Positions 2,661 to 16,129 of a stretch of 64,000 nt of DNA are shown here, in pieces. A program made the translations under genes and the position numbers. Below the pieces are notes generated by a model that searched no databases, had not been told where the DNA came from, and saw only the letters and a program-made list of their open reading frames with translations. Source of the stretch: Halioglobus japonicus (lineage in GTDB: Bacteria; Pseudomonadota; Gammaproteobacteria; Pseudomonadales; Halieaceae); NCBI RefSeq assembly GCF_001983995.1, contig NZ_CP019450.1, positions 3,658,001-3,722,000 of the forward strand, read 5' to 3'. Within the stretch, counting starts at the first letter, position 1. The number at the start of each line of letters is the position of its first letter.

Positions 2661-3011
2661 ATGGAATACGCAGACAAAGTCGCGGCGGTAGAGCGCTACG
2701 TCGAGGCCTTCGACAAACAGGACATGGCAATCATCCGCGATATCTACGCGGAGGATGCTATTGTTGAAGACCCAGTGGGCAGTGATAAGCATGTGGGCAT
2801 TGAAGCGGTGTGTGCTTTTTATGAAGGCGCCCTGGGGTCGGGTGCCAAACTCGTACTCAGCGGCCCGGTCCGCTCAGCCGCCAACACGGCAGCATTTCCA
2901 TTTCAGGTCAAAATGGGTGACATGAGCATCGATATCATCGATATCTTTGAATTCAATGAAGCGGGTAAGGTCGTCAGCATGAAGGCCTACTGGGGCCCCG
3001 AGAATATGTAA
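2661..3011 (+). CDS. steroid delta-isomerase-like protein (NTF2 fold)
   Basis: A 116-residue NTF2-fold protein closely resembling ketosteroid isomerase. The catalytic set aligns with the Comamonas enzyme: Tyr13 in RYVEAF (Tyr14), Asp37 in VEDPVGS (Asp38) and Asp94 in IIDIFEF (Asp99). The C-terminal GKVVSMKAYWGPENM stretch also matches. The family reaction is 3-oxo-delta5 to 3-oxo-delta4 steroid isomerisation in the cytoplasm. It lies 9 bases after the second dehydrogenase with a good AGGAG site, so all three genes are probably co-transcribed. It ends two bases before the convergent c-di-GMP gene. Function inferred from motif conservation; other NTF2-fold isomerases remain possible. Confidence 0.75.
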   Translation: MEYADKVAAVERYVEAFDKQDMAIIRDIYAEDAIVEDPVGSDKHVGIEAVCAFYEGALGSGAKLVLSGPVRSAANTAAFPFQVKMGDMSIDIIDIFEFNEAGKVVSMKAYWGPENM

Positions 3012-3013
3012 TC

Positions 3014-5332
3014 TCAGCCGCCCGGCACCTGCCGGGCGCGCCCATCCAGCCCCTGCAACTCACGCACAAAATGCCAGGGCTTTAACAGCTCGGCAAACTC
3101 ATCCACCGGTACGGGCGCACTGAACAGGTAGCCCTGAATAATGTGGGCGCCGTGCTCGCTGATAAAGTGGTACTGCTCCGGCGTCTCAACGCCCTCCACC
3201 ACAACGTCCAGCCCCAGCCCACGGGCCATGGCGATAATCGCAATTACCAGGCTGGCATCTTCGGCGCTGTTCTCGGCGGCGATAACAAAGCTACGATCAA
3301 TCTTCAGCTCGGTTAACGGGAAACGGCTGAGGTAACTCAGCGATGAATAACCGGTGCCAAAATCGTCGATGGACAGACTCACACCCATTTCCCGCAACTC
3401 GCTCAAGGCCTTCACCGAAGCGTGGGTATCGCCCATCACAACACCCTCAGTCAGCTCCAGCTGCAACACACTGGGGTCGACCCCTGTCTCTTCGAGAATG
3501 TCTTTGACCTTGCGCACAAAGGTAGGCGTGAATTGCAGGGCAGAGACATTGACGGCCACTCGCGGCAATAGCAGTCCCTGCTCGCGGAAGCGCTTTACCT
3601 GCATACAGGCCTCGCGGATCGCCCAGTCGCCCATATCATTGATAAGCCCCATTTCTTCGGCGAGGGGAATAAACCGGAACGGGGGTATCAGTCCCTGCTC
3701 TGGGTGCCGCCAGCGCATCAGGGCCTCGGCGCCTTCCACGGCACCCGTGCGAGTGTTCACCTGTGGCTGGTAGTACAGCACCAGTTCATCGCGCTCGATA
3801 GCGCGCCGCAAATCGGTCTCGAGCGTCAGGCGATCCAGACCTGCCGCATCCATATCGTTGTTGTACACCAGGAAGCTGTTTTTGCCCGTGCTCTTGGCGT
3901 GGTACATCGCGGTATCCGCGCAGCGCAGCAGGCCCTCCACGTCGTCGGCATGGTCAGGCGCCAGGGCAATACCTACGCTGGGGGTGACCACCAGTTCATG
4001 GCCGTCGATCAGCATGGGTTCCACCAGCGCGTCGAGCAGTCGCTGCGCAACCACCCCCGCCGCCTCGGGGCCCGCCACATGGTTGAGCACCACGGTGAAT
4101 TCATCGCCGCCGAGCCGCGACACCCCGATCTTGCCGCTGGTCTCACTGTAGTGCGCTACCACGTCGCTCTCGCGCACGCAGTTCGCCAGCCGTGCACCGA
4201 CCTCTCGCAACAGTAAATCGCCGGCGCTATGCCCCAGGGAATCATTGATCCGCTTGAAGTTGTCCAGATCAAGGAACAGCAGCGCCAGCTGCTCCTCGTT
4301 GCGTTTGGCCAGTCGCAACAACAGCGACAATTGCTCGGTAAACAAGCGGCGATTCGGCAGTGATGTCAGGCTGTCGTAGTAGGCGAACTGACGCAGCCGG
4401 TTCTTGGCCTGGGTGACCTGCTTGACCGCCTGATTGAGCTCCTGGTTGCGCTTGGACAACTGCGCGGTACGCTCCTCCACCTTCATGCTGAGCAGTTGGT
4501 GGTCGACATCCATACGGGTCTTGTAGTCGGACATACCGCTGAAAATGCCGTTGATGATGCGCGCGATGTCGCTGATCTCACCGCTGCCGCGAGCCTGTAC
4601 CGGCTTCTCCAAACGCCCCTCTGCGAGCTCCTGCGCTGCCCGCGCCAGCCGGGCCAAGGGCGCGGTAATCCGGCGTGTGAAGACGGCACTGAACAACATG
4701 CTGACACAAGCGAACAGCGCGCTAATCAGGAAGACACGGTACAAATGGGGAGTGACCTGCAACAGAATCTGCTGCTGGGGTACTACGAAGTCGAGATAGC
4801 CCACCACGTGGCGGCTGCCCTCGGCAAAGACTTCACTCTGAGCCAGTACAAAAGCCTGTGTATCCACCGATGACTGCGGATTAACGCCGGAGAACACCGG
4901 TAAGTTGAGATGCAGCTCTGCACCCGGAGGATAAAAGGCACTGACTAACCCGACACCTGCGGCGGTCCCATCGCGATTCAAGGACTGCAAGTTGGTTTCT
5001 GCAGAGGTCGTATTGCCCCGCGCCTCATCGAACCCGGCCAGGTCCGAGGAGCGACCGAGCACGATGCGATTGTCACCCTGGGTGGAATAGGCGGTAATGC
5101 CGATCACGGGTGTCTGCAGCATGGGCTTCAGGGCAGCCGACAGGGCCTGGCTGTCGCCCAGGTACATCGCGTAGGCAATCTGGTACCGCGAACGGACCTC
5201 GCGCTCCAGCTGGGCAAAAGCCCGCTCGCGCTCGGCATTGAATTCGTGTGTTGCACTGACCCCGCAGACCAGCAGGCCCACGCTGATCACTATCGTACTT
5301 ACCAGCGCATTGAACTTTCCGGCAATGGTCAT
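3014..5332 (-). CDS. membrane GGDEF-EAL protein (c-di-GMP synthase/phosphodiesterase)
   Basis: About 772 residues. An N-terminal membrane segment (about 5-27) is followed by a periplasmic sensor region, a second membrane segment near 200-220, a HAMP linker and a short coiled coil. Then come a GGDEF domain with intact RLGGDEF (408-412) and an EAL domain with intact EALMRW (536-541) plus the downstream DDFGTGYSSL motif. Both active-site signatures look complete, so it could make or degrade c-di-GMP; which activity dominates cannot be read from sequence. The frame stays open to 5422, but I place the start at the ATG at 5332 because the protein then begins directly with the membrane segment. It ends 2 bases from the convergent isomerase gene. 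Confidence 0.88.
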   Translation of the reverse strand: MTIAGKFNALVSTIVISVGLLVCGVSATHEFNAERERAFAQLEREVRSRYQIAYAMYLGDSQALSAALKPMLQTPVIGITAYSTQGDNRIVLGRSSDLAGFDEARGNTTSAETNLQSLNRDGTAAGVGLVSAFYPPGAELHLNLPVFSGVNPQSSVDTQAFVLAQSEVFAEGSRHVVGYLDFVVPQQQILLQVTPHLYRVFLISALFACVSMLFSAVFTRRITAPLARLARAAQELAEGRLEKPVQARGSGEISDIARIINGIFSGMSDYKTRMDVDHQLLSMKVEERTAQLSKRNQELNQAVKQVTQAKNRLRQFAYYDSLTSLPNRRLFTEQLSLLLRLAKRNEEQLALLFLDLDNFKRINDSLGHSAGDLLLREVGARLANCVRESDVVAHYSETSGKIGVSRLGGDEFTVVLNHVAGPEAAGVVAQRLLDALVEPMLIDGHELVVTPSVGIALAPDHADDVEGLLRCADTAMYHAKSTGKNSFLVYNNDMDAAGLDRLTLETDLRRAIERDELVLYYQPQVNTRTGAVEGAEALMRWRHPEQGLIPPFRFIPLAEEMGLINDMGDWAIREACMQVKRFREQGLLLPRVAVNVSALQFTPTFVRKVKDILEETGVDPSVLQLELTEGVVMGDTHASVKALSELREMGVSLSIDDFGTGYSSLSYLSRFPLTELKIDRSFVIAAENSAEDASLVIAIIAMARGLGLDVVVEGVETPEQYHFISEHGAHIIQGYLFSAPVPVDEFAELLKPWHFVRELQGLDGRARQVPGG

Positions 5333-5492
5333 CCGGCGTCCACCTGTCCCCTTGTTGTTATGCTCACAGTATGTGGTATCCCACCGCCGGTTTCCAAGGG
5401 GCGAAAGATCAACTTTTCCCACTTTTTTGCTGGTCGAAAAGCAGGCGCCTATGGTTGAATTCCCCTATTAAAAACAAAAGGATGCGACTTAG

Positions 5493-6020
5493 ATGTCGGA
5501 ATTCCAGCTAACCCATGTCGCGCTGGTCGGCGCGCGTATGGATGCCTTTTCTCCGCAGGGCTTCAAAACGCGCAGTGAGCTTAATATGAAACGGGTCTTT
5601 CCGGACACCGCCGGACTAAAGTTATCCGATATGGACACGGCACAGTTTCGTGAGCATTTTGACCAGGCCCTGCCCCTGTGGGTGCACAATATTGTGACCG
5701 ACCGCGAATTTCCCGGCCGCAGCAAGCTGGCTATGTGCCTGCGTCGCTTTGAGGGCGAATTGCGCGATCATCGCGAAAACGAGGTGATTGCCAGCGTATT
5801 AAGCTCCGGTTTTCGCAATCGTCCCCTGGATCCACTGGCTCTGCCCGAGAGCATGCCGCTGCGCCAGCGCTGCGCAATGCTGATGTATATCGATGTCTGG
5901 CAGGAAGCCTACCGACGCATGACAAGGGAGTTGTGTGCGCTGCTAGAGGAGCAGGCTGAGGTACTTGATCAGTGGATAGCGACAGCGGAGCCTGAGATCG
6001 ACCACGCTATCGCGTCCTGA
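5493..6020 (+). CDS. hypothetical protein, 175 aa
   Basis: A soluble, fairly acidic protein of unknown function. It has an early VALVGARMDAFSPQGFKTR stretch and a helical C-terminal half rich in Leu, Arg and Glu. No signal peptide, membrane segment or cysteine motif is visible. An AAAGGA ribosome binding site precedes the ATG. It is divergent from the GGDEF-EAL gene, sharing a short upstream region, and convergent with the next gene. I do not recognise the family. Confidence 0.65.
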   Translation: MSEFQLTHVALVGARMDAFSPQGFKTRSELNMKRVFPDTAGLKLSDMDTAQFREHFDQALPLWVHNIVTDREFPGRSKLAMCLRRFEGELRDHRENEVIASVLSSGFRNRPLDPLALPESMPLRQRCAMLMYIDVWQEAYRRMTRELCALLEEQAEVLDQWIATAEPEIDHAIAS

Positions 6021-6028
6021 TATCCCGA

Positions 6029-6361
6029 TCAGGCGTCCGCCGGACGGCGATCGCCTGCTGACTTCCCTACCATACGCACGGTGCGCTGACAGGTATCCAG
6101 CCAGGGCTGGACGGTGTCGGTTTTCAAGGCGCGCACAAACCCGCCTTCACTGCGACACGAAATACTGGTCTTGTTTGGCGTCCAATCACCCTCTTTCGGG
6201 CGCGGCTTACGCTTGGAGTAATACCACAGGCCACGGCGGTCCTGCATGATGTAATTGGCATCGTCAGGAAGGAATACCTTTTTCCCGTCGATGACGGCAA
6301 AGACCTCCAGGTCACTGCCGGTTTCGCTTTCTAGCGATGCTGTTGGTGTTATAGTCAACAT
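6029..6361 (-). CDS. hypothetical protein, about 110 aa
   Basis: A small soluble protein with DLEVFAVIDGKKVFLPDDAN and GLWYYSKRKPRPKEGDW stretches, suggesting a compact beta-rich fold, and two cysteines near the C-terminus. Function unknown. The start may be the ATG at 6361 or a GTG at 6373. It lies downstream of an AT-rich region containing repeated GCCAAATT motifs that may hold its promoter. It is convergent with the 175-residue gene. Confidence 0.55.
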   Translation of the reverse strand: MLTITPTASLESETGSDLEVFAVIDGKKVFLPDDANYIMQDRRGLWYYSKRKPRPKEGDWTPNKTSISCRSEGGFVRALKTDTVQPWLDTCQRTVRMVGKSAGDRRPADA

Positions 6362-6484
6362 CTCTGCCCCCACAAAAAATAGTCAGTTCCATTCCATTGG
6401 CTGGGCGGGTATAAGCCCGCAAGATGCCGCAACTCCGCGACATGCCCGCTAGTTATATGTGAGGATCGGGCAAGGGGCAAAGGT

Positions 6485-6606: not shown

Positions 6607-7008
6607 CTAATTCGTAATCAGCTGCATGTGAGGCGGGGACTTTGGCGTGGGGTCCAGGGCCTCCAGTGGCTCGGGTACCCCCTGAGACATCAGCTCGGCA
6701 GCCTGTTCCACGGCACTCATCAACATCTGCAGTGACATGGTTGAGCGCAGCTCCGGCGTGGCCAGCTTACCCTGCAAATCCGCCACGTCACGGTCGCTGA
6801 TAAAGCCCAGCACCACCGCGTTGGTCAGGTAGTCGCGAATAATCTGGCGACTGACCTGATCCTGCAAATAGCTCTGATAGCCCTCATCGCCGAACACCTG
6901 CACCAGAACCGATTTCTGCTCTTCGGTCAGGGGCCCGGTCACAAACGGCAGTTCATCGCCAAATGCGAGCTCTATACTTTCCACCAACTTGTCCAGTTGC
7001 AAATGCAC
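6607..7008 (-). CDS. hypothetical protein, fourth gene of the Chp-like operon
   Basis: A 133-residue soluble, mainly helical protein (LDKLVESIELAFGDELPF at the N-terminus, ending in a proline-rich tail). The start is placed at the GTG at 7008 because AAGGAG lies seven bases upstream; an ATG at 7029 has no such site. No known domain recognised. It is the last gene of the four-gene operon with the PilG-like and Hpt proteins, 29 bases after its neighbour, so a role in that signalling pathway is plausible by context only. Confidence 0.6.
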   Translation of the reverse strand: MHLQLDKLVESIELAFGDELPFVTGPLTEEQKSVLVQVFGDEGYQSYLQDQVSRQIIRDYLTNAVVLGFISDRDVADLQGKLATPELRSTMSLQMLMSAVEQAAELMSQGVPEPLEALDPTPKSPPHMQLITN

Positions 7009-7037
7009 GGAAGTGCTCCTTGGGGTCATGGGTCGAA

Positions 7038-9800
7038 CTAACCTTTTATCTCAAGGTTTTGTCCGGTCAATTCATTGATTTGGCCAACCAGTGCACGGAA
7101 ATTAAATGGTTTGCCCATATAGCCGTTACAGCCTGCTTCCTCGGCGAGGGCGCGATGCTTGGCCCCGGTGCGTGAGGTCACCATAATCACCGGCAGGTGC
7201 CCGTATCGGCTCGATTCGCGAATTTCCCGCAGCGTCTGGATGCCGTCTTTAACGGGCATCTCCACGTCCAGCAGAATGATGTTCGGCAGCCGATCCGTGC
7301 TGTTAAGCCACTCGATCGCAAGCGCGCCGTTCTCGGCCGTCTCGGTCTCCGCACCTACGCCACCCAGCTGGCTCGTCGCGACCATTCGCTGGGTACGGGA
7401 GTCATCAACGACCAGTGCAAAGACGCCATCTACCACTTCCTGCGGCGCCGGGGGTACCGGTTCTGCGGGCTCTGCTACAGCCACAGCGGGCTCAGTCTGC
7501 CCACCGAGTGATTGCATGGCAACTGCCTGCTGCTCAAGCAACGCCTCGGCGCTGGCGTTATTGCGACTGGCCTGAGCGATGAGTTCCGCAAGACCATCCA
7601 GCTCTCCCTGCAATGCCGGGTTCTGCTCTGCGTAGATAAGACTCCGCAGTGTGCCCAGTCGCGCCTCGATGGCGACAAACAGGTCGGTTGTTGCTGCGCG
7701 CAGATCCGTTTCCTGGGCTGTAAGCGCCTGCATCTCGCCGAGTTCGGCCGGCGCCGCAGATTCATCCGCCATAGGCTCAGGCACCGGGGGTGCTTCTGGC
7801 GACGCTGTATCCGCCTCCTCCGGCAATTCGAGAGCTTCCTCCACGACAACAGCGGCCTCAGCGCTATGCTCTTCGGGCATCGCCGCATAAGGGAAGACAT
7901 TGCCGATATCACAGCGATTGGCTTTGATAGCCGCAACACCCTGGGCAGCGGCTTCCTGCCAGGCGCGCATTATCCTGAAGTAATCCGGGGCCAGGTCGCC
8001 GGTGGGGGCGGGCAGGCCTTCAAACAGAATTTCGTAGTTCTCCATCAAAGTGCCGAACCCGGCAAGGCCAACACCATTGGAGATGCCCTTCAAAGTATGC
8101 AGAATGCGGGCGATTTCCGCTGTGGGTGCGTCGCCGTCAAGCTCGGCCTCCCAGGCGTTCAGTATCTGCGCCAGCGCGGCCACTTCGGAGGTACCCTCCT
8201 CCGCAAACGCGTCGAGGAAATTTTCCAGTACATTGGCGCCTTCGGGGGCGCGCGGAATAAAGGACAGATGCGCCGGTATGCACCAGGCAGCATCCTGAGG
8301 TGCCGCAGCCGCGACTGCAGGCTGTTGTGGTTCCGGCTCCGGTTCTGGCTTCGCAACAAACGTGGGTTCAGGCGCAGTCTCTACAGCGGATGACTCAGCT
8401 GCAGGCTCTGCCGCCGCCAAATCATCGCCGCCGTCGAACTCGTCAAACAGGGCATCGATATCGGTATCTTCTTGCCCTGGTTCCCAACCACTGGGCGCGA
8501 GATCGGCATCGAGATCGTCGTCGAGAATGCTCTCTTCAAATACATTGTTATCGACAGCGCGCAACACCGGCGGGGTATCGATTTCAATAACCCCCCTCTC
8601 CCCACTTTCGCGGAACAGGTTGTTACAGATCTCGCCGCTGTCCATCCAGCACAGACGCAGGAAAATGGCGTCGCGCTGCGTGTCGGTCAATTCGGCGAGA
8701 CTGGCAGGGATGGCAGTGAAGATATCCATCACCCGGGCATAGTCCTGCTGCTGGGCCAGGTTGGCACTGGATTCGTCCGTGGCCATGGAGAAATCCGCGT
8801 AGACCGAGTCTGCCGGGCGGCCCATGGCCACCAGTCGTGCTCCCAGGGCCATGTTGAGCTCTTCCATCAGCGGTGCAATCAGCGGCGTGACCGCCGCCAA
8901 AATGCTCTCGCCCAACTCGGCCACTTCCTGAATTTCTTCGGGCAGGTCTACCGGCTCGTCGGGCTCTACATCAACCACCGGCTCCATGGCGACCAGTTCC
9001 AGGCCTCCAATATCACCCTGTGCTTCACCTAATTCACCGCCGGCAACGAGGTAGTCATCAAAGGCCTCGTCATCGACAGGCGCCGGATTCTCGGCAATAT
9101 AGTCCTCTACTGAATCGGCTGCAGGCTCTGTCTCCGTAGCGGCTGACTCGACCTCATCTACCTGCTCCACGGCGGATTCAGTGACTTGCACCGCGGGGGC
9201 CAGCGTCTCAGGTTCAGTGGCAGCGGGTGCTGCCTCAACAGGCTCGGTCACATTTACGGGCGCCACAGCCTCGACAGGCTCTGCTGCCACAGGCGCCGGT
9301 GCCGCGTCGACTTGATCGCCGCGCTTGACGCGTTTGACCTTCAGATAGGTTTCACCGATATCATCGTCATCTTCCAGACCGAGAATATCGTCACCATCCT
9401 GTACATCGATCTTGCCCTCAAACACCCCCACGTCCCCGTCGCGGGAGAAATCAAGGGCCATAACCTCTTCAATCTCGAGGTCTTCACTCAGGCTCTCATC
9501 CATCGAGTCGCGGTAGATATCGCTGGACGCTCCGTCCGAGGACATGACCACTTCCTCGCCGACGTAGGCGTCAAACGAATCGGCGCCATCCTTGCCACGC
9601 TGCATTGGACGCGCAGCAATCTCAGCCTCAAATGCGCTGAGAGACATATCCACGGGGTCCTGGCGATCGACGACAAACAGCTTCTCAGTCGGCTCGTCTT
9701 TGTCGAGCTCGTCCATCAACCAGAGGACCATCGCCTCCTGAGCGCTGTCCAGGCCATCCGCCGCATCCTGCGACCCGACTTTGTTCTCATCAGTATGCAC
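7038..9800 (-). CDS. acidic Hpt and response-regulator protein without kinase core (Chp-like)
   Basis: A 920-residue protein with three parts. The first, roughly 1-540, is extremely acidic and low-complexity, with many Pro-Val-Glu-Ala stretches. The second is a histidine phosphotransfer domain with HTLKG (His568). The third is a C-terminal receiver domain (about 795-915) with the DD pair of VVDDSRTQ, phosphoacceptor Asp845 in LLDVEMP, and GKPF lysine. ChpA/PilL-type chemosensory kinases end in the same Hpt...receiver order, but here no dimerisation, HATPase or CheW domain lies between. Start is a GTG with GGAAGGAG seven bases upstream. It follows the ChpA-N-like gene by 29 bases. Likely a phosphorelay component needing a kinase encoded elsewhere. 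Confidence 0.8.
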   Translation of the reverse strand: MHTDENKVGSQDAADGLDSAQEAMVLWLMDELDKDEPTEKLFVVDRQDPVDMSLSAFEAEIAARPMQRGKDGADSFDAYVGEEVVMSSDGASSDIYRDSMDESLSEDLEIEEVMALDFSRDGDVGVFEGKIDVQDGDDILGLEDDDDIGETYLKVKRVKRGDQVDAAPAPVAAEPVEAVAPVNVTEPVEAAPAATEPETLAPAVQVTESAVEQVDEVESAATETEPAADSVEDYIAENPAPVDDEAFDDYLVAGGELGEAQGDIGGLELVAMEPVVDVEPDEPVDLPEEIQEVAELGESILAAVTPLIAPLMEELNMALGARLVAMGRPADSVYADFSMATDESSANLAQQQDYARVMDIFTAIPASLAELTDTQRDAIFLRLCWMDSGEICNNLFRESGERGVIEIDTPPVLRAVDNNVFEESILDDDLDADLAPSGWEPGQEDTDIDALFDEFDGGDDLAAAEPAAESSAVETAPEPTFVAKPEPEPEPQQPAVAAAAPQDAAWCIPAHLSFIPRAPEGANVLENFLDAFAEEGTSEVAALAQILNAWEAELDGDAPTAEIARILHTLKGISNGVGLAGFGTLMENYEILFEGLPAPTGDLAPDYFRIMRAWQEAAAQGVAAIKANRCDIGNVFPYAAMPEEHSAEAAVVVEEALELPEEADTASPEAPPVPEPMADESAAPAELGEMQALTAQETDLRAATTDLFVAIEARLGTLRSLIYAEQNPALQGELDGLAELIAQASRNNASAEALLEQQAVAMQSLGGQTEPAVAVAEPAEPVPPAPQEVVDGVFALVVDDSRTQRMVATSQLGGVGAETETAENGALAIEWLNSTDRLPNIILLDVEMPVKDGIQTLREIRESSRYGHLPVIMVTSRTGAKHRALAEEAGCNGYMGKPFNFRALVGQINELTGQNLEIKG

Positions 9801-9829
9801 GTTGCTTCTCCTTCCGCGCAGCGGCCGGG

Positions 9830-12244
9830 TTAGTGGCCCAGAGGCTCAACAACCGAGCTATCGGATGCGCTTGCCGATGCCTGATCGTCTATCTGGGGAA
9901 GCGTGCCAGCGAGATCTTCACCGGCGCCACTGGCCATCCGGAAACAGCGGTCTGTGAGCTCACGTGTGCGGGTAACATCGAAGCTGGTGCCATCTTTGTA
10001 CGAAGCCACCAGCACGGGAAGTTCATTAACGACATCGTCCATCAACAGTTTCAGGCTTTCACCGACTTCGAGGTCGCCATCGAGGACGCGGTCTAGCATG
10101 TCCTGTACCGCCCAGCCCAACTCACCGAGAATGTTCGCACCGACTGCGCGCCCATTACCTTTGAACGTATGGAAGTGCCGGCGAATATCGCGCAGTACGT
10201 CCTGATCGTCGGGCGTTTCCAGCCAACGCGGGGTGAGCGTGGAAATTTCCGCGACAATCTCCTCGGATTCCTCGATAAATACCTCGCGAAACTCCGGCGG
10301 AATATCTGCGTCTTCCACATAGTTCTTGGGCTCGGCCCAGCTGCCTTCGACAACCTCGGCTCCAGATGACAGCTTGGCCGCAAATTCGTCGAGTTCGGCA
10401 GCGCGCTGACGAGCAATCGCAAGCATGTGCTCGGTATCATCCAGCGGGTCAATCACCGAACGCTGCAGGTGCAGCTCAAGCTGGGCAAAAGCCTCGGCAA
10501 AGCAGCGGAAGGCGTCATCTTCACGCACCTCACCGGCTTTGCTGGCGGCGCGCAGCCACCCGGAGCAGCGGTCGATGATGCTTGCCTCTTCTTCCATACC
10601 CGCAAATCCCAGTGCGCCGGCGATCTCGTCCAGCAATTCCAGGGACAGGTCTATCGCCTTGCGATCGGGCAGGGTTTCCTGCTCATTGAGGAAGACTCTG
10701 GAGAGCTCCAATAAGCGATCGACGTCCGCCTCACCGGCGTCGGCCTGGCGCACTGCCTCGCGCAGTTCTTCATAGCCCTGATCGGTCTTGTTAAGGTGTC
10801 GATTCAGGGCGACCGTGAGGCGCAGCAATGCCGCGTCATCCTTGGGTTTGCGCGCCAGGGCACTGGCCAGTTCCTTGCGGCGCAGGATCTGGTGCATGTA
10901 GTTTTCCACCAGTCCCATGTGATTGAAGGTGGCAGCGACGACACTTTCGCGCAGCTCAAATTCACGACTGGAGAACGAACTGCCCAGGCCGTGCTCCAAC
11001 TTGTGCTCGATATCCAGTTTAACGTCGACAATACCGCGAATAATGTCGCTGATTGCCTGGGTAAGCTGTTCCGGTGATTCGTTGAAATCGCCGCGATACA
11101 GCTTCTCGAGACGCCCCTGCACACCGTGCAGTGAGTCTGCATGGACCATCTGGCCGGCTGCTTCAAGGCGGTATTGGGTGGCCTCAATGCCCACCAGAGC
11201 AGTGTTATCCAGTTCACGGCCGTCGCCACGCTTGGCTTCCTCGGCGAGATCGTGGGTATTCAGGTGGTCGACCACCGTATTGAGCTGATCCAGCGCCGAA
11301 CTCAACGCCGTCACCAGCGCATCGGCATGAATCAGGTTGCCATTAGCATCGCTTAGCGTGTTCTCGGAAATACCAAAAATGCCGCGAATTCGACCGATAT
11401 GTACCGGCCGCGCCTTGCAGGCAGCAATGTAGTACAGCATCTGTTGCAGCGTCGCCTGGTAATCCATGTTGGGGTCGATAGCCGCGCCATTCTCGCGGGC
11501 ATACTTGATCGTAAAGGCGCCGGTCTTGAAAATCTGGGCAATGCATTCGTCGGGCACAATCAGGCCACCAGCAACGCCCTCACAAATGCCGATCATCGTC
11601 AGCCAGAAGCGCTCCGGCTCGGTGCCGACAAAAAGGGTTTGCATGCGGCGGGAAATCCGCGCCACCGTCTTCATGCTTTCCTTCACATTTTTGCGGCGCA
11701 GGGCCATCTTGGCCATTTCCAGGTACAGGGCCAGCATGACGTTGGCGCGCTCGCGAATTTCCTCGTCCGCAGCGGGCTGTCCGCCCACGGTAATACCTGC
11801 ATTTTCAGGTATTTCCATGTGGAAGAAGTAGGCCGGCGGACGGGGACGTTCGCCCAGCCAGCGGCGCATATCATTCACGTGTTGTTCGAGTCCCTGACCG
11901 GAGTCTGCGCGGGCGTTCTGGGCGTGGGCAAAGTAGGCAGGTAATACCTTGAGCGCCTGCATAAGGCCACCCATGGTGAGCTTGCGCCGCTCTCCGGTGA
12001 CCTTGTCCTTGTACAGGTAGTTGAGGCTGCGCTCCATCTCCAGCGTGAGCATTTCCCCCTTGCGCATACCCAATGCCCGCAGGGTGGAGGTAATCTGGTG
12101 CACGGCCCACATGCATTGCAGGAGCGGGCGCTTGTTGGACGGGTCATTGCTGTAGTCCACCAGGGACGCCTCAGCATTCTCCGCCTGCTTATTCATCAGG
12201 CCGACGACCCATTTTAGGGCTACGATGTCAGTTTTGCTGGCCAC
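9830..12244 (-). CDS. ChpA N-terminal-like Hpt protein without kinase core
   Basis: About 804 residues. The N-terminus (VALKWVVGLMNKQAENAEAS and the following helical region) resembles the N-terminal module of ChpA, the large kinase of type IV pilus chemosensory systems. An Hpt domain with HFHTFKGNGRAVG (His692) sits near the C-terminus. No HATPase, dimerisation or CheW domain is present, and the protein stops shortly after the Hpt. I place the start at GTG 12244, with GGAGG seven bases upstream; a TTG at 12250 is too close to that site. It lies 90 bases downstream of the PilG-like gene and 29 bases upstream of the acidic Hpt-receiver gene. Confidence 0.75.
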   Translation of the reverse strand: MASKTDIVALKWVVGLMNKQAENAEASLVDYSNDPSNKRPLLQCMWAVHQITSTLRALGMRKGEMLTLEMERSLNYLYKDKVTGERRKLTMGGLMQALKVLPAYFAHAQNARADSGQGLEQHVNDMRRWLGERPRPPAYFFHMEIPENAGITVGGQPAADEEIRERANVMLALYLEMAKMALRRKNVKESMKTVARISRRMQTLFVGTEPERFWLTMIGICEGVAGGLIVPDECIAQIFKTGAFTIKYARENGAAIDPNMDYQATLQQMLYYIAACKARPVHIGRIRGIFGISENTLSDANGNLIHADALVTALSSALDQLNTVVDHLNTHDLAEEAKRGDGRELDNTALVGIEATQYRLEAAGQMVHADSLHGVQGRLEKLYRGDFNESPEQLTQAISDIIRGIVDVKLDIEHKLEHGLGSSFSSREFELRESVVAATFNHMGLVENYMHQILRRKELASALARKPKDDAALLRLTVALNRHLNKTDQGYEELREAVRQADAGEADVDRLLELSRVFLNEQETLPDRKAIDLSLELLDEIAGALGFAGMEEEASIIDRCSGWLRAASKAGEVREDDAFRCFAEAFAQLELHLQRSVIDPLDDTEHMLAIARQRAAELDEFAAKLSSGAEVVEGSWAEPKNYVEDADIPPEFREVFIEESEEIVAEISTLTPRWLETPDDQDVLRDIRRHFHTFKGNGRAVGANILGELGWAVQDMLDRVLDGDLEVGESLKLLMDDVVNELPVLVASYKDGTSFDVTRTRELTDRCFRMASGAGEDLAGTLPQIDDQASASASDSSVVEPLGH

Positions 12245-12333
12245 TACCAAACCTCCGGTTTTCCTTTTTTTTTGCGGACTATGGGCCGCTTATCTTTATA
12301 GGTACTGCTGGTGCACGCGGGCTTCAGGCTTTT

Positions 12334-12750
12334 TTAGACTGAGGCAATTTTTCGCTGTCGGGTATGGGTGTAAATCAACCGACGGAGCACACTCTCCGGC
12401 GGAATCTTGGTCACGTGAGCGGTAGCGCCGCGGGCCTGCCCCTTGGCAATATCAAAAATACCATCCGAGGAAGACAGCATAACCACAGGGGTATCGCGGG
12501 TGGCTTCTGCGTTTCGGATCAGGGTACAGGTTTGATACCCGTCCAGCTCTGGCATGGTGATATCCAGGAAAATCAGGTCGGGTTTGAAGCGACGCAGCAT
12601 GCCCAGAGCCTTGTAGCCGTCCTCGGCGGACTCTACCTCGCAGCCCATTCCCTTCAGCGTGTGGGACATCATCATCCTGATGGTCTTGGCGTCATCAACA
12701 ATGGCGATTTTTACGCCGCTGATGTCCATTTCTTCAGTTTGTTCGCTCAT
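12334..12750 (-). CDS. PilG-like response regulator
   Basis: A 138-residue single-domain receiver: AIVDDAKTIRMMM acidic pair, phosphoacceptor Asp63 in FLDITMPELDGYQTC, VVMLSSSDG and TKIP near the lysine position. The IRMMM...GYQTC pattern is typical of PilG, the twitching-motility receiver phosphorylated through ChpA. It is the first gene of the minus-strand operon. A GAGGGCAAAA ribosome binding site precedes the ATG. The rest of a classical pilGHIJK-chpA cluster is not present here. Confidence 0.75.
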   Translation of the reverse strand: MSEQTEEMDISGVKIAIVDDAKTIRMMMSHTLKGMGCEVESAEDGYKALGMLRRFKPDLIFLDITMPELDGYQTCTLIRNAEATRDTPVVMLSSSDGIFDIAKGQARGATAHVTKIPPESVLRRLIYTHTRQRKIASV

Positions 12751-12948: not shown

Positions 12949-13562
12949 CTATTCGACGGGAAACATATAGTTTCTGAAAGGCTCCAGATGACCGGGCTGA
13001 AAGTCCTGCAACTCGTAGATATTAAACTTGTGCATCAGCGTCAGACAGCGCTGAAACGCCTTGTCGGCGTCGTAGGCTGAGGGGGCAATCCCGTATTCAT
13101 CGGTCAATTGCGCAAAAATCAGCGATGCAATCTCGCGCCGGGCCTGGTCCTGCCGATACATGCTGGCATTCACAGGGGATGACACCACCGGCGAGCCGTA
13201 GATCAGGAATGCCTCCCAGCGGCTCACATCCTGCGCCTCATCCATTTGCGCCAGCAAAAACGACACCATATTCCTCAAATCCAGTGGCGGCGGCAGAATG
13301 TCCTTCTGCAGCCACTTGCGCACTTCCGTCTCGCGCCAGCAGCTATTAATGCCCAACACGGCCAGCACCCGCCCCTCCGCCTGCGCCGGAACGACGCCAG
13401 AGAGATCCCAGAGCATATTCAACCGGGCGGAAAACCCCAGGCTGGCGGGCAGTGCCTCCTGGGCCAACTGTTCGAACTGGGACGCCAGCTCTTCCGGCGA
13501 TCGCTGGGAGCGGGCCGGCGCCCGGGGGCTGGGTGGGTCTTGGATTCGTGGGGCATGCTCAT
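12949..13562 (-). CDS. hypothetical protein (probable 204 aa, frame interrupted by a one-base deletion)
   Basis: In the sequence as given, this frame can only start at a TTG at 13467 (172 residues). However, the frame reads naturally further upstream (QDPPSPRAPARSQRSPEEL). The upstream gene's stop overlaps an ATG at 13562 in ATGA fashion, but in another frame. Adding one base to the G4 run at 13550-13553 joins that ATG to the frame and gives about 204 residues. The protein is soluble and helical, with no recognised domain. Tight coupling to the dead enhancer-binding-protein gene suggests they work together. Function unknown. Confidence 0.6.
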
Positions 13563-16129
13563 GCTTCCTGCAAAATTTGTTTTAGCCGCTTTTGATAAGT
13601 AGGCGTAGAGACCCCCATGATTCTGGCGCGGTCGGCGACGCTGATCTCATCGCACTGCTGCAGTACCAATCCCAGCAGCAATTCCTCGGCAAACTGTTGG
13701 GGCACATGCTCGCCTGGCACCGCTTCGAGAATCCACTGACGCACCAGGCTGCGCGAATCCTCCCATAGCAAACTGGTCTCACGCTCTCGCTCTCGCGCCT
13801 CAATTTTCGGCATCCAGCGGCCAATATTGCGCGTGCGGGTCTGGAGAAACTGCGCCGTTCCACGGGTGTCACCGCCAAAGCGCTCCAGTGCCGCCAGCAC
13901 GATTTCATCGTCAAGCCAGGCACCGAGTGGCCGAATCACCCCGTGCTCGAGACTGCTCGCCAGGGCCTTGGCCAGTGCGGCTCGCATCTCCTCCAGCGCA
14001 GATGGCGCATACTCCTCCGGCTCTGCCGCGGATTCTTCCTGCAGCACTTCCAGGAAAGGCCTGGGAGCCCCGCTGACCGCACTGCCATCAGCGCTGATGC
14101 CCGCGAAGACACCGAGGTCCACCGGGGTGACCCATTCATTCTCAGTGCGCCCCAACGCCTCTCGAACCATGTCGCGCATTTCGCTGATATTACCCGGCCA
14201 GCGGTACTGCTGCAGGGCCTGCTCGGCATCTGCCGTAAAGCCCAGTACCCGCCGATCCAGATGTTCAGCTTCCTGCTCGAGAATTTTGTGCGCCCATCGC
14301 AGCACGGCACGACCCCGGTCGCGCAAGGGCGGCACCTGGATGGGATAACCCGCAAACACCCCCGCCAGGCGTTCATCCAGCTCGCCGCGGTGCACCAGGG
14401 CCTCGAGACTCTCGGGAAAAAGGCCCACATAGCGTGCCTGGGGCAGGTAGTGACTGCCCCGCTCGCCCGTCAACGTCCGGGTAGACAGAATACGAGCCAG
14501 GCGACCCTGGGTCTCGGCGTGAAGTAAATGAGGCGACTTGAATACCAGCGTACGGCCCGCGCTGGCCTCCAGTGCCTGGACAATATTACGCAGAGCGTCC
14601 GCCCTGCTGCGATAGGCGCGACAATCGAGCCAAAGGATATCCGCGGCGGCGCCACCTGCTTCGGTATTGATCACCTGGGCGACGTACATTTTGCCTGTGC
14701 CGCGGGCACCGATAACCGCCACGGGCATATCTACGCCGGCCAGGAACACAGCCTGGTCTATCGCGCCTTCCATGTTATCGAGCACATAGCCCTCGATGCC
14801 CTTCTCCATTTCTCTGGCCAGGGGCTTGTCTTCAGCAGCTTCGTCCACCATGGAAGCCGGACCCAACTTGCCGCCCAGAGTGACGCCAAGATAGTGTTGG
14901 ACCGAGGGCGAAGGTCGGAAGGCATCCACACAATCCGGCTCTGCCAGCAATGCGATACAACCCCAAGGTTGCCCCGCGCCGCGCAATGCCACCAGGGCCG
15001 CCCGCTGCTCCGGAAGCTCCAATATGTCGCGCCCCTGCAGCTGCACGGCACTCACGCCTCGCAGCACCCGCCGCAGCTGGGAGGGCAGCCGTGAAGAAGG
15101 CAGCTCGACCGCTCCCTCGCTGGCCTGGCGATAGGCGGCGCTGATACTGAGTTTGCCCGTGGCATCCCACTGTGCCAGGGCCGCCACATGCAGACCGCGC
15201 TGACTCACCAGCAGCGCCAGCACCCGGGCGACGGCCTCCTGGGCAGACATGGCTTCTACCTGCATGCCAACCAATCGGCGCAAGACCACAGTAGCATCTA
15301 CATCAGGGCGGCGATCGGGGAATGCCCCGGCGGCATTCAATGCTCGCGCAGCCTGGCCTTGCTGATCCCAGGGACTGGCAAAGCGGATACGCTCCTCAGG
15401 TGTCGACTGGGCGTGAAGCAGGGCTCCGTTGGCCGCCAGCAAGGCATCCAATGAGCCCTGTTCCCGGCGCTGTTGGGCCAGGCCGATACTGGCCCGCGCC
15501 ACCCTCGCCCCGGAGTTCATCTGTTCCAGCCGCTGGTGCAGGTGTGACAAAAGTGCCCGGCTGATATCCAGCGCACTTTCCGGTGTCAGCCCACGCAATA
15601 ACAGGGTCAATGTGGCTCCCGCCGGCAGACCGAGCCAATCCTCATCCCGCAGCACCTGCTGCAGGCCGCTGCGCAAGTCCATCATCAGTCGCTCGGTTTC
15701 CACCGCCCCCCAACTGGGACTGAACTCGAGATGGTCGATACCGAGTACGGCAACCACATCATCGCCGGTAACTGACTCCAGTTCGAGCAGCGCATTATCC
15801 AGTTCCAGCTCGCGCAGAAACAGAAGCAGTGCAGGCTCTCCCGCAAACCACTCCGGGACCGCCATGCCACCGACGACGCATTCACTCTGCGTGCCACTGC
15901 CGACAATCATGGGAGACAATGCGGCGCCAGCCCCCGCTTCCAGAGCCTGGGTAACAACAGCCGTGCAGTTTGGAGAGACAATCAGGGCATCGCGCCAGTC
16001 GCGGCCTACTCTTTCCTCACCCGTGGGATTGGGCAACGCGCCTTCGATGGCCAACACCTGGCCGCTGGCACGGGAGATGACCACCAGTGTGGTATTCAGA
16101 TCGGTCAGTTTTGTTGTTGTGTCCGACAT
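13559..16129 (-). CDS. degenerate sigma-54 activator-like AAA protein with GGDEF-like and GAF-like regions
   Basis: 856 residues. Residues about 110-240 look like a GGDEF fold that has lost its motif (LPAGATLTLLL where RLGGDEF is expected). About 280-400 is GAF-like. The AAA region has an intact Walker A (GARGTGK, Lys480), but the Walker B acidic pair is replaced (TLVFKSPHLL, Lys531-Ser532), the GAFTGA sigma-54 contact loop is absent, and the arginine-finger segment is altered. The YRWPGNISEM motif remains. Two helix-turn-helix-like stretches follow, the last ending LKQILQEA. It therefore probably neither hydrolyses ATP normally nor activates sigma-54, and may act as a nucleotide-binding scaffold or repressor-type regulator. 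It overlaps the following unknown gene. Confidence 0.7.
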   Translation of the reverse strand: MSDTTTKLTDLNTTLVVISRASGQVLAIEGALPNPTGEERVGRDWRDALIVSPNCTAVVTQALEAGAGAALSPMIVGSGTQSECVVGGMAVPEWFAGEPALLLFLRELELDNALLELESVTGDDVVAVLGIDHLEFSPSWGAVETERLMMDLRSGLQQVLRDEDWLGLPAGATLTLLLRGLTPESALDISRALLSHLHQRLEQMNSGARVARASIGLAQQRREQGSLDALLAANGALLHAQSTPEERIRFASPWDQQGQAARALNAAGAFPDRRPDVDATVVLRRLVGMQVEAMSAQEAVARVLALLVSQRGLHVAALAQWDATGKLSISAAYRQASEGAVELPSSRLPSQLRRVLRGVSAVQLQGRDILELPEQRAALVALRGAGQPWGCIALLAEPDCVDAFRPSPSVQHYLGVTLGGKLGPASMVDEAAEDKPLAREMEKGIEGYVLDNMEGAIDQAVFLAGVDMPVAVIGARGTGKMYVAQVINTEAGGAAADILWLDCRAYRSRADALRNIVQALEASAGRTLVFKSPHLLHAETQGRLARILSTRTLTGERGSHYLPQARYVGLFPESLEALVHRGELDERLAGVFAGYPIQVPPLRDRGRAVLRWAHKILEQEAEHLDRRVLGFTADAEQALQQYRWPGNISEMRDMVREALGRTENEWVTPVDLGVFAGISADGSAVSGAPRPFLEVLQEESAAEPEEYAPSALEEMRAALAKALASSLEHGVIRPLGAWLDDEIVLAALERFGGDTRGTAQFLQTRTRNIGRWMPKIEARERERETSLLWEDSRSLVRQWILEAVPGEHVPQQFAEELLLGLVLQQCDEISVADRARIMGVSTPTYQKRLKQILQEA

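Follow-up and report, generated by a model that had tools for sequence, protein, structure and literature searches.

How can a chemosensory operon that encodes receivers and histidine phosphotransfer (Hpt) domains, and no kinase core to feed them, persist in a bacterial genome? This question is raised by four minus-strand genes in a 64,000-nucleotide stretch of the Halioglobus japonicus genome (assembly GCF_001983995.1, contig NZ_CP019450.1, positions 3,658,001 to 3,722,000; this whole stretch is hereafter called the window, and positions are counted from its first letter). The original prediction, made from the sequence alone, saw in these genes the two ends of a ChpA kinase split into separate proteins and matched their exact composition to no described pathway. 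On the evidence of gene order and alignment, the operon is what is left of a Chp (type IV pilus) chemosensory operon with a split ChpA, one that relatives keep complete, and hence a secondarily reduced form of a known system and not a new kind. The same comparisons show that three genes, pilI, pilJ and chpC, are gone from the window lineage, and that the kinase has lost its HATPase and CheW domains in frame. As to function, we lean, with modest confidence, towards the view that what these genes preserve is the output side of the Chp operon (PilG, the N-terminal half of ChpA and a receiver), served in trans by another ChpA.

The operon and its intact relatives

All four genes have open frames without internal stops and are tightly spaced, as originally described, with intergenic gaps of 83, 29 and 8 bases (the last becoming 29 with a later start of the final gene). 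The first (12334..12750) encodes a PilG-like single-domain receiver of 138 residues (Response_reg, 83 bits), whose acceptor had been placed correctly at Asp63. The second (9830..12250) encodes the N-terminal half of ChpA (ChpA-N) as a protein of its own, 806 residues long, in which a helical FimL/ChpA-N-like region (residues 1-625) is followed by a C-terminal Hpt domain (residues 653-740, 10031..10294; PF01627, 48.5 bits). This Hpt domain had been recognized, with its acceptor at His692; the HTFKG motif puts the acceptor at His694 (codon at about 10169-10171), the number 692 holding only for an 804-residue start. Residues 7-625 match the N-terminus of a fused ChpA encoded in the same genome (26% identity, expectation value [E] 4e-39), and the AlphaFold model of the protein is all-helical (mean predicted local distance difference test score [pLDDT] 78.7, predicted template modeling score [pTM] 0.46). 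The third gene (7038..9800) encodes a 920-residue protein, which alignment with eight intact orthologues and Pfam identify as the C-terminal half of ChpA (ChpA-C) without HATPase and CheW. It consists, in order, of an acidic N-terminus, a conserved middle region, a diverged Hpt (residues 529-593, 8022..8216) with an HTLKG motif and a score of 18.8 bits, below the Pfam cutoff of 24.6 bits, a shortened and diverged dimerization segment (residues about 690-765, 7506..7733) and a receiver (residues 796-908, 7077..7415; Response_reg, 72.7 bits), its acceptors His568 and Asp845 being where they had been predicted. The fourth gene (6607..7008) encodes a helical protein and follows ChpA-C in 21 of the 24 loci related to this one; its predicted length of 133 residues holds for a GTG start that fits the homologues, whereas the longest frame (6607-7029) gives 140.

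Pfam searches at E ≤ 1 found neither HATPase_c nor CheW in any of the four proteins, and the two large ones yielded an Hpt each, one of them below threshold, and no kinase domain. The absence of HATPase and CheW thus stands as predicted; the dimerization segment, also listed as missing, survives in shortened form and, with an intact relative's kinase core as a tblastn query, was the sole significant match (E 4.5e-5). H-kinase_dim gave no Pfam match in the window proteins, nor in the intact relatives scanned. The 140-residue reading of the last gene has no Pfam domain, and NCBIfam, with no match at its curated cutoff among the matches shown, added no specific name. When the PilI, PilJ, CheR and ChpC proteins of relatives were used as tblastn queries, nothing significant was found in the 64-kb window, so that the reported lack of pilH, pilI, pilJ and pilK nearby holds as far as these four queries go. 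Candidate remnants of pilI, pilJ and chpC, with best matches at E 0.83-0.92, were taken as chance. Promoter and terminator matches were no more numerous than in shuffled sequences. The PilG-like receiver reads K-I-P after its conserved lysine; the usual receiver form there is K-P, which the receiver of the genome's fused cluster has.

What the operon once contained can be read from its relatives. A scan of one genome per species yielded 24 related loci with the ChpA-N protein, the named genera being Halioglobus, Pseudohalioglobus, Seongchinamella, Parahaliea, Haliea and Mangrovimicrobium, the last five of which we take to be Halieaceae. Here pilJ is present in all 24 (some copies partial), the kinase core in 23, pilI in 22, a chpC-like gene in 21 and cheR in 11, and all six misses of pilI, the core and chpC fall at loci that meet a contig end on that side (L014 and L023 for pilI; L024 for the core; L014, L017 and L024 for the chpC-like gene). 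The partners and flanks are shared as well, some loci being cut: a pilG-like gene in 22, the 133-residue gene in 21, a 172-residue gene upstream in 20 and a 114-residue gene downstream in 21. Where the window has only an 83-base gap between the PilG-like and ChpA-N genes (12251..12333), relatives carry the CheW-type gene pilI, the receptor gene pilJ and, in the 11 loci mentioned, cheR. Their uncut ChpA-C frames span 1212-1880 residues, and the three scanned as L003, L004 and L008 hold Hpt, HATPase_c (62-70 bits), CheW (32-35 bits) and receiver domains by Pfam. Aligned with eight intact orthologues of 1212-1577 residues, the window protein lacks the HATPase_c and CheW stretch by an in-frame deletion, the site of which is now a linker (7424..7505). 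Identity to six intact relatives is about 93% for the PilG-like protein, 75-78% for ChpA-N and 80-81% for the C-terminal receiver.

The same picture emerged from a wider sample. Among 33 genomes of the family (39 less the 6 whose only match is a fused ChpA), 29 have a kinase-core match no more than 10 kb from ChpA-N; of the other four, two (G022 and G023) have the core on other contigs, and the remaining two are the genome of the window and that of Halioglobus maricola. When 105 genomes of the order were sampled, most of the listed matches from outside the family fell in open frames of ~1500-2800 residues, as in fused ChpA, with shorter frames unresolved.

The operon of H. maricola (G034) is reduced in the same way: genes for 138, 806, 896 and 133 residues stand in the same order with the same domains, and PilI, PilJ and ChpC queries found no significant tblastn match in the 20-kb locus; of the whole query set, kinase core and CheR included, the dimerization segment alone was matched significantly there, as in the window, at the reporting limits used. 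The two loci are about 70-76% identical in DNA, with protein identities of 98.6% for the PilG-like protein and 92% for ChpA-N; HTFKG of ChpA-N is retained in both, the Hpt of the ChpA-C remnant falls below the Pfam cutoff in both (20.8 bits in H. maricola), and the ChpA-N tree places the two genomes as sisters. Comparison of gene order bore out the four-gene arrangement in H. maricola; the other relatives examined have the extra genes and the core. An assembly or sequencing artefact, or a normal chpA broken by a frameshift, would account for such a locus more trivially; nothing was found in its favor and we give it practically no credence, as the frames hold no stops, the division of ChpA into two genes recurs in relatives and is therefore not a frameshift, and the same reduced architecture in the single-contig genome of H. 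maricola means that the reduction is no artefact. A near-identical ChpA-N protein (P0003) is also listed from a contig of a different length, 382,027 bases. As a separate observation, the middle region of the 920-residue protein (8481-8933) is recognizable in both reduced lineages, and in H. maricola it has a weak, subthreshold match to a YbjN/type III secretion chaperone-like family (E 0.051).

Constraint on the retained genes and a second reduced lineage

Are the retained genes still in use, or on their way out? In pairwise codon models of the window against H. maricola, the ratio of nonsynonymous to synonymous rates (dN/dS) is 0.005 for the PilG-like protein, 0.023 for ChpA-N, 0.048 for the ChpA-C remnant and 0.046 for the 133-residue protein; within the remnant it is 0.015 for the N-terminus, 0.058 for the middle region, 0.072 for the Hpt, 0.074 for the dimerization segment and 0.034 for the receiver, and every one of these values rejects 1. 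Depending on the gene or piece, dS between the two species takes values from 1.2 to 8.3, often near saturation, and in one of the controls, L001 against L003 for the middle region, it is saturated; the ratios are therefore rough, although their position far below 1 is secure. By this measure, the retained genes are under strong purifying selection.

Relative-rate tests, with Mangrovimicrobium (L022) as the outgroup and six comparisons (the two reduced genomes against L001, L003 and L004), locate where constraint differs. The PilG-like protein has 5-6 unique changes in the reduced genomes against 3 in the intact ones, which is not significant, and ChpA-N has 63-74 against 47-68, with p about 0.02 for the two comparisons with L001 and 0.4-0.8 for the other four; its Hpt shows no significant acceleration (7-8 against 5-7). 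In the remnant, the middle region shows no significant acceleration, whereas the Hpt has 37-46 changes against 6-9 (p 1e-8 to 4e-5; for example, 46:6, p = 1e-8), the dimerization segment 29-35 against 0-4 (p 2e-10 to 3e-6; 35:1 against L001) and the receiver 14-16 against 2-4 (p 0.001-0.02). Its N-terminus is significantly accelerated in four of the six comparisons, and the 133-residue protein gave p values of 0.05-0.5. Read in this way, constraint is relaxed or changed beside the lost core and mildly so in the receiver and N-terminus, and not in PilG, nor consistently in ChpA-N.

These rates bear directly on the idea of slow decay, in which the operon is a passing remnant since a fused Chp cluster took over. 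In its favor, the operon has lost several genes and two domains, part of the 920-residue protein evolves faster, and six sampled genomes with only a fused cluster have neither the ChpA-N nor the 133-residue gene. We nevertheless consider it quite improbable: the window's species and H. maricola, as far apart as they are, both keep the four frames open, dN/dS per gene is 0.005-0.048, the domains were lost in frame, and pilG shows no significant acceleration and ChpA-N no consistent one.

Reduction is also seen in another, metagenomic lineage. Two relatives of ChpA-C, P0302 (802 residues) and P0304 (793 residues), have by Pfam a receiver only, with no Hpt, HATPase_c or CheW, and by eye a dimerization-like segment. 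P0032, a ChpA-N protein that keeps HTFKG, seems to share a contig of 9506 bases with P0304, and P0222, a homologue of the 133-residue protein, one of 45502 bases with P0302. These data suggest a second loss, deeper than that in Halioglobus. In the ChpA-N tree, P0032 stands outside the window's clade, the nearest relative of which, by path, is P0006, apparently on the same contig as an intact ChpA-C of 1380 residues (P0244). Both the tree and the unequal extent of loss suggest a strictly independent origin, but a single origin of both reductions was not rejected (p-AU 0.066, present in 7% of 200 bootstrap trees).

A complete Chp cluster in the same genome

If the operon has no kinase of its own, where would its phosphoryl groups come from? 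An orphan system in a genome without a kinase is ruled out here. A kinase elsewhere in the genome, one of the options originally raised, does exist: a complete Chp cluster (G000:C1:1.2537-1.2627 Mb), 2.4 Mb from the reduced operon along the contig, encodes a receiver, a CheW protein, a PilJ-type receptor, a fused ChpA of 1802 residues (1.254-1.260 Mb) with two Hpt stretches, HATPase_c, CheW and receiver, and a second CheW protein. The genome also has a separate CheA-like frame of 707 residues with Hpt and CheW matches (1.56 Mb), three PilT-family genes over cutoff, and FimV. H. maricola carries the same fused cluster between the same flanking genes, with a ChpA 87% identical. Among eight genomes of the genus, the fused ChpA occurs in two only, and those two are also the only ones without a kinase core beside the ChpA-N gene; in five of the other six, the flanking genes lie side by side at the empty site (G062, at a contig edge, was left out). 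That the four genes stay under strong selection without receptor, couplers or kinase core of their own suggests that this second, complete system drives them.

Several observations weigh against this view. The two reduced genomes are sisters, so that the link with the fused cluster amounts to a single event. Mangrovimicrobium sediminis (G007) has the fused cluster at the same site together with an intact split operon; a fused cluster is thus not sufficient for reduction. Six genomes that are 86-99% complete (G006, G008, G019, G032, G047 and G058) have the fused cluster only, with no ChpA-N gene and no 133-residue gene, which means that fused Chp does not need the module in general; among ten genomes tested, the 133-residue gene is present in four of four with the split operon and in none of these six. 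A complementary loss of an Hpt in the fused ChpA was not found, both HxxKG motifs being kept in all eight fused ChpAs compared, and the fused cluster has a receiver of its own, 43-46% identical to the PilG-like protein. The Hpt step of the remnant (His568), subthreshold and accelerated, may be dead. Finally, the upstream AAA gene and the 172-residue gene show some acceleration, each in four of six comparisons, so the rate pattern is not wholly specific to the operon.

The composition of the fused cluster also bears on another role, that of a phosphate sink or brake, the retained receiver and Hpt proteins drawing phosphate away from PilG or the fused ChpA rather than relaying an activating signal. 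Both retained receivers keep their acceptor aspartates, and among the matches listed (E ≤ 1e-10), the receivers of the fused cluster are one stand-alone protein and that of ChpA itself, so that a PilH-like sink may be lacking there. A sink, however, would need neither a ChpA-N region of 625 residues nor a PilG-like protein conserved at 98.6%, and we regard this role as unlikely, if the foremost of the alternatives.

Some features of the fused cassette and of the genes around the operon may be recorded here. At its two ends the cassette (L030, L065, L069, L122 and L125) carries a weakly YARHG-like gene and a TonB_C (chalcone-isomerase-like) gene; it occupies one shared site in three genomes and lies away from those flanking genes in two, G006 and G008, where they are absent from the 19 kb examined. 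The 133-residue protein has 318 homologues at E ≤ 1e-3, a helical AlphaFold model (pLDDT 77.2) and a highly conserved central helix with the consensus YLQDQVNRQIIRDYLTNA; a fold search against the PDB gave no match at E ≤ 0.001, the best being E 3.4. Upstream of the PilG-like gene lies, as in the 20 loci counted above, a gene for a 172-residue protein of no family (12949-13467, minus strand; 78-83% identity to six intact relatives), and beyond it one for an 856-residue protein (13559-16129, minus strand), found upstream of the operon in many relatives, with weak GGDEF, sigma-54-type AAA and AAA lid domains. The GAFTGA motif, looked for by eye in the latter, was not seen, and the protein may be an enhancer-binding protein that has degenerated. 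The operon is followed directly by a gene for a 114-residue protein of no family (6029-6373, minus strand; 82-86% identity to six intact relatives) and further downstream, at 2661-6020, by a large gene that looks by eye to be of GGDEF/EAL type and by small conserved genes, in the same order as in close relatives.

Proposed mechanism and comparison with known systems

The comparisons above show the history of the operon. Its ChpA had already come to be encoded by two genes, the break falling between the Hpt domains. The parts that build a receptor array or couple to one—the receptor PilJ, the couplers PilI and ChpC, and the HATPase and CheW of the kinase—were lost cleanly in this lineage, with the receptor- and ATP-binding parts gone and the parts that carry or receive phosphate, among them the working-type Hpt of ChpA-N, kept along with the ChpA-N region. 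For the present function we infer the following. The fused ChpA of the second cluster would supply phosphoryl groups in trans, His694 of ChpA-N would serve as the hub through which PilG (Asp63) and the receiver (Asp845) exchange phosphate, and the ChpA-N region would dock or position PilG, as FimL and ChpA do in Pseudomonas.

Published work offers precedents for both activities. In Pseudomonas aeruginosa, FimL and ChpA, which have homologous N-termini, are reported to recruit PilG jointly to the pole, and ChpA to phosphorylate PilG (PMC10519157). In Rhodobacter sphaeroides, the kinase-dead CheA3 is described as being phosphorylated in trans by CheA4 (PMC10782961, PMC6829392), a partition that, with its nonfunctional CheA3 kinase domain, is presented as a unique case common to twenty other Rhodobacteraceae genomes (PMC10782961). 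The same source gives kinase and CheW domains for all 13,673 CheA proteins of its survey; orthologues without a kinase core would presumably not have been counted there.

FimL itself suggests a further possibility, in which ChpA-N and its partners act purely as a scaffold that positions PilG at the pole and phosphotransfer is irrelevant. ChpA-N is homologous to the region that FimL resembles (PMC3019171), and FimL keeps PilG at the pole (PMC10519157) while being thought not to transfer phosphate (PMC3019171). Against this, both acceptor positions of FimL are described as glutamines (PMC3019171), but the two reduced genomes and P0032 retain HTFKG, the Hpt of ChpA-N is not accelerated, and the receiver aspartates are retained. 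A pure scaffold accordingly seems to us improbable, to nearly the same degree as the sink.

We also offer, tentatively, a more general proposal, rating it at somewhat short of an even chance. Chemosensory systems could be dismantled until a phosphorelay module without array or kinase is left (PilG, ChpA-N with its Hpt, a receiver protein and the 133-residue protein), its members staying together and coming under the control of another chemosensory kinase. This would have happened more than once, Halioglobus having lost HATPase and CheW, and the metagenomic lineage also the Hpt of the kinase half while keeping the receiver and, apparently, the histidine of ChpA-N. We found no description of the loss of core, couplers and receptor with the rest conserved in the literature, judged mostly by titles and the openings of abstracts. 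The locus is of use as a natural deletion that parts the array and kinase side from the side of phosphotransfer and PilG, and other members of the genus supply intact orthologues to serve as controls. Two questions become testable: what a ChpA-N/FimL-type region does for PilG without a kinase of its own, and whether two PilG modules can be run by a single ChpA. The locus may also picture how a FimL-like scaffold could arise from a ChpA.

Several known systems resemble the operon in part. A bipartite CheA with a separate Hpt protein in the same operon (PMC10782961) is partly matched by the intact split operons of the relatives, but the kinase half in the window has no catalytic core. With the CheA3/CheA4 pair, the operon shares a CheA homologue without a working kinase, the Hpt of CheA3 being phosphorylated in trans (PMC10782961, PMC6829392); CheA4, however, is encoded in the operon of CheA3, which keeps its CheW and its array, whereas here the candidate ChpA lies 2.4 Mb away, and CheW and the array parts are gone. 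Like FimL, ChpA-N is a stand-alone protein homologous to the N-terminus of ChpA (PMC3019171), but it has an Hpt above the Pfam cutoff with HTFKG, and it shares an operon with PilG-like and receiver genes, FimL being compared by description only. Another counterpart is the Pil-Chp system itself (ChpA, PilG, PilI, PilJ and ChpC) of type IV pilus control: in the window, ChpA is divided between two proteins, and receptor, couplers, HATPase and CheW were not found in the operon, whereas the PilG-like receiver, the ChpA-N region, the Hpt and the C-terminal receiver are all homologous to their Pil-Chp equivalents.

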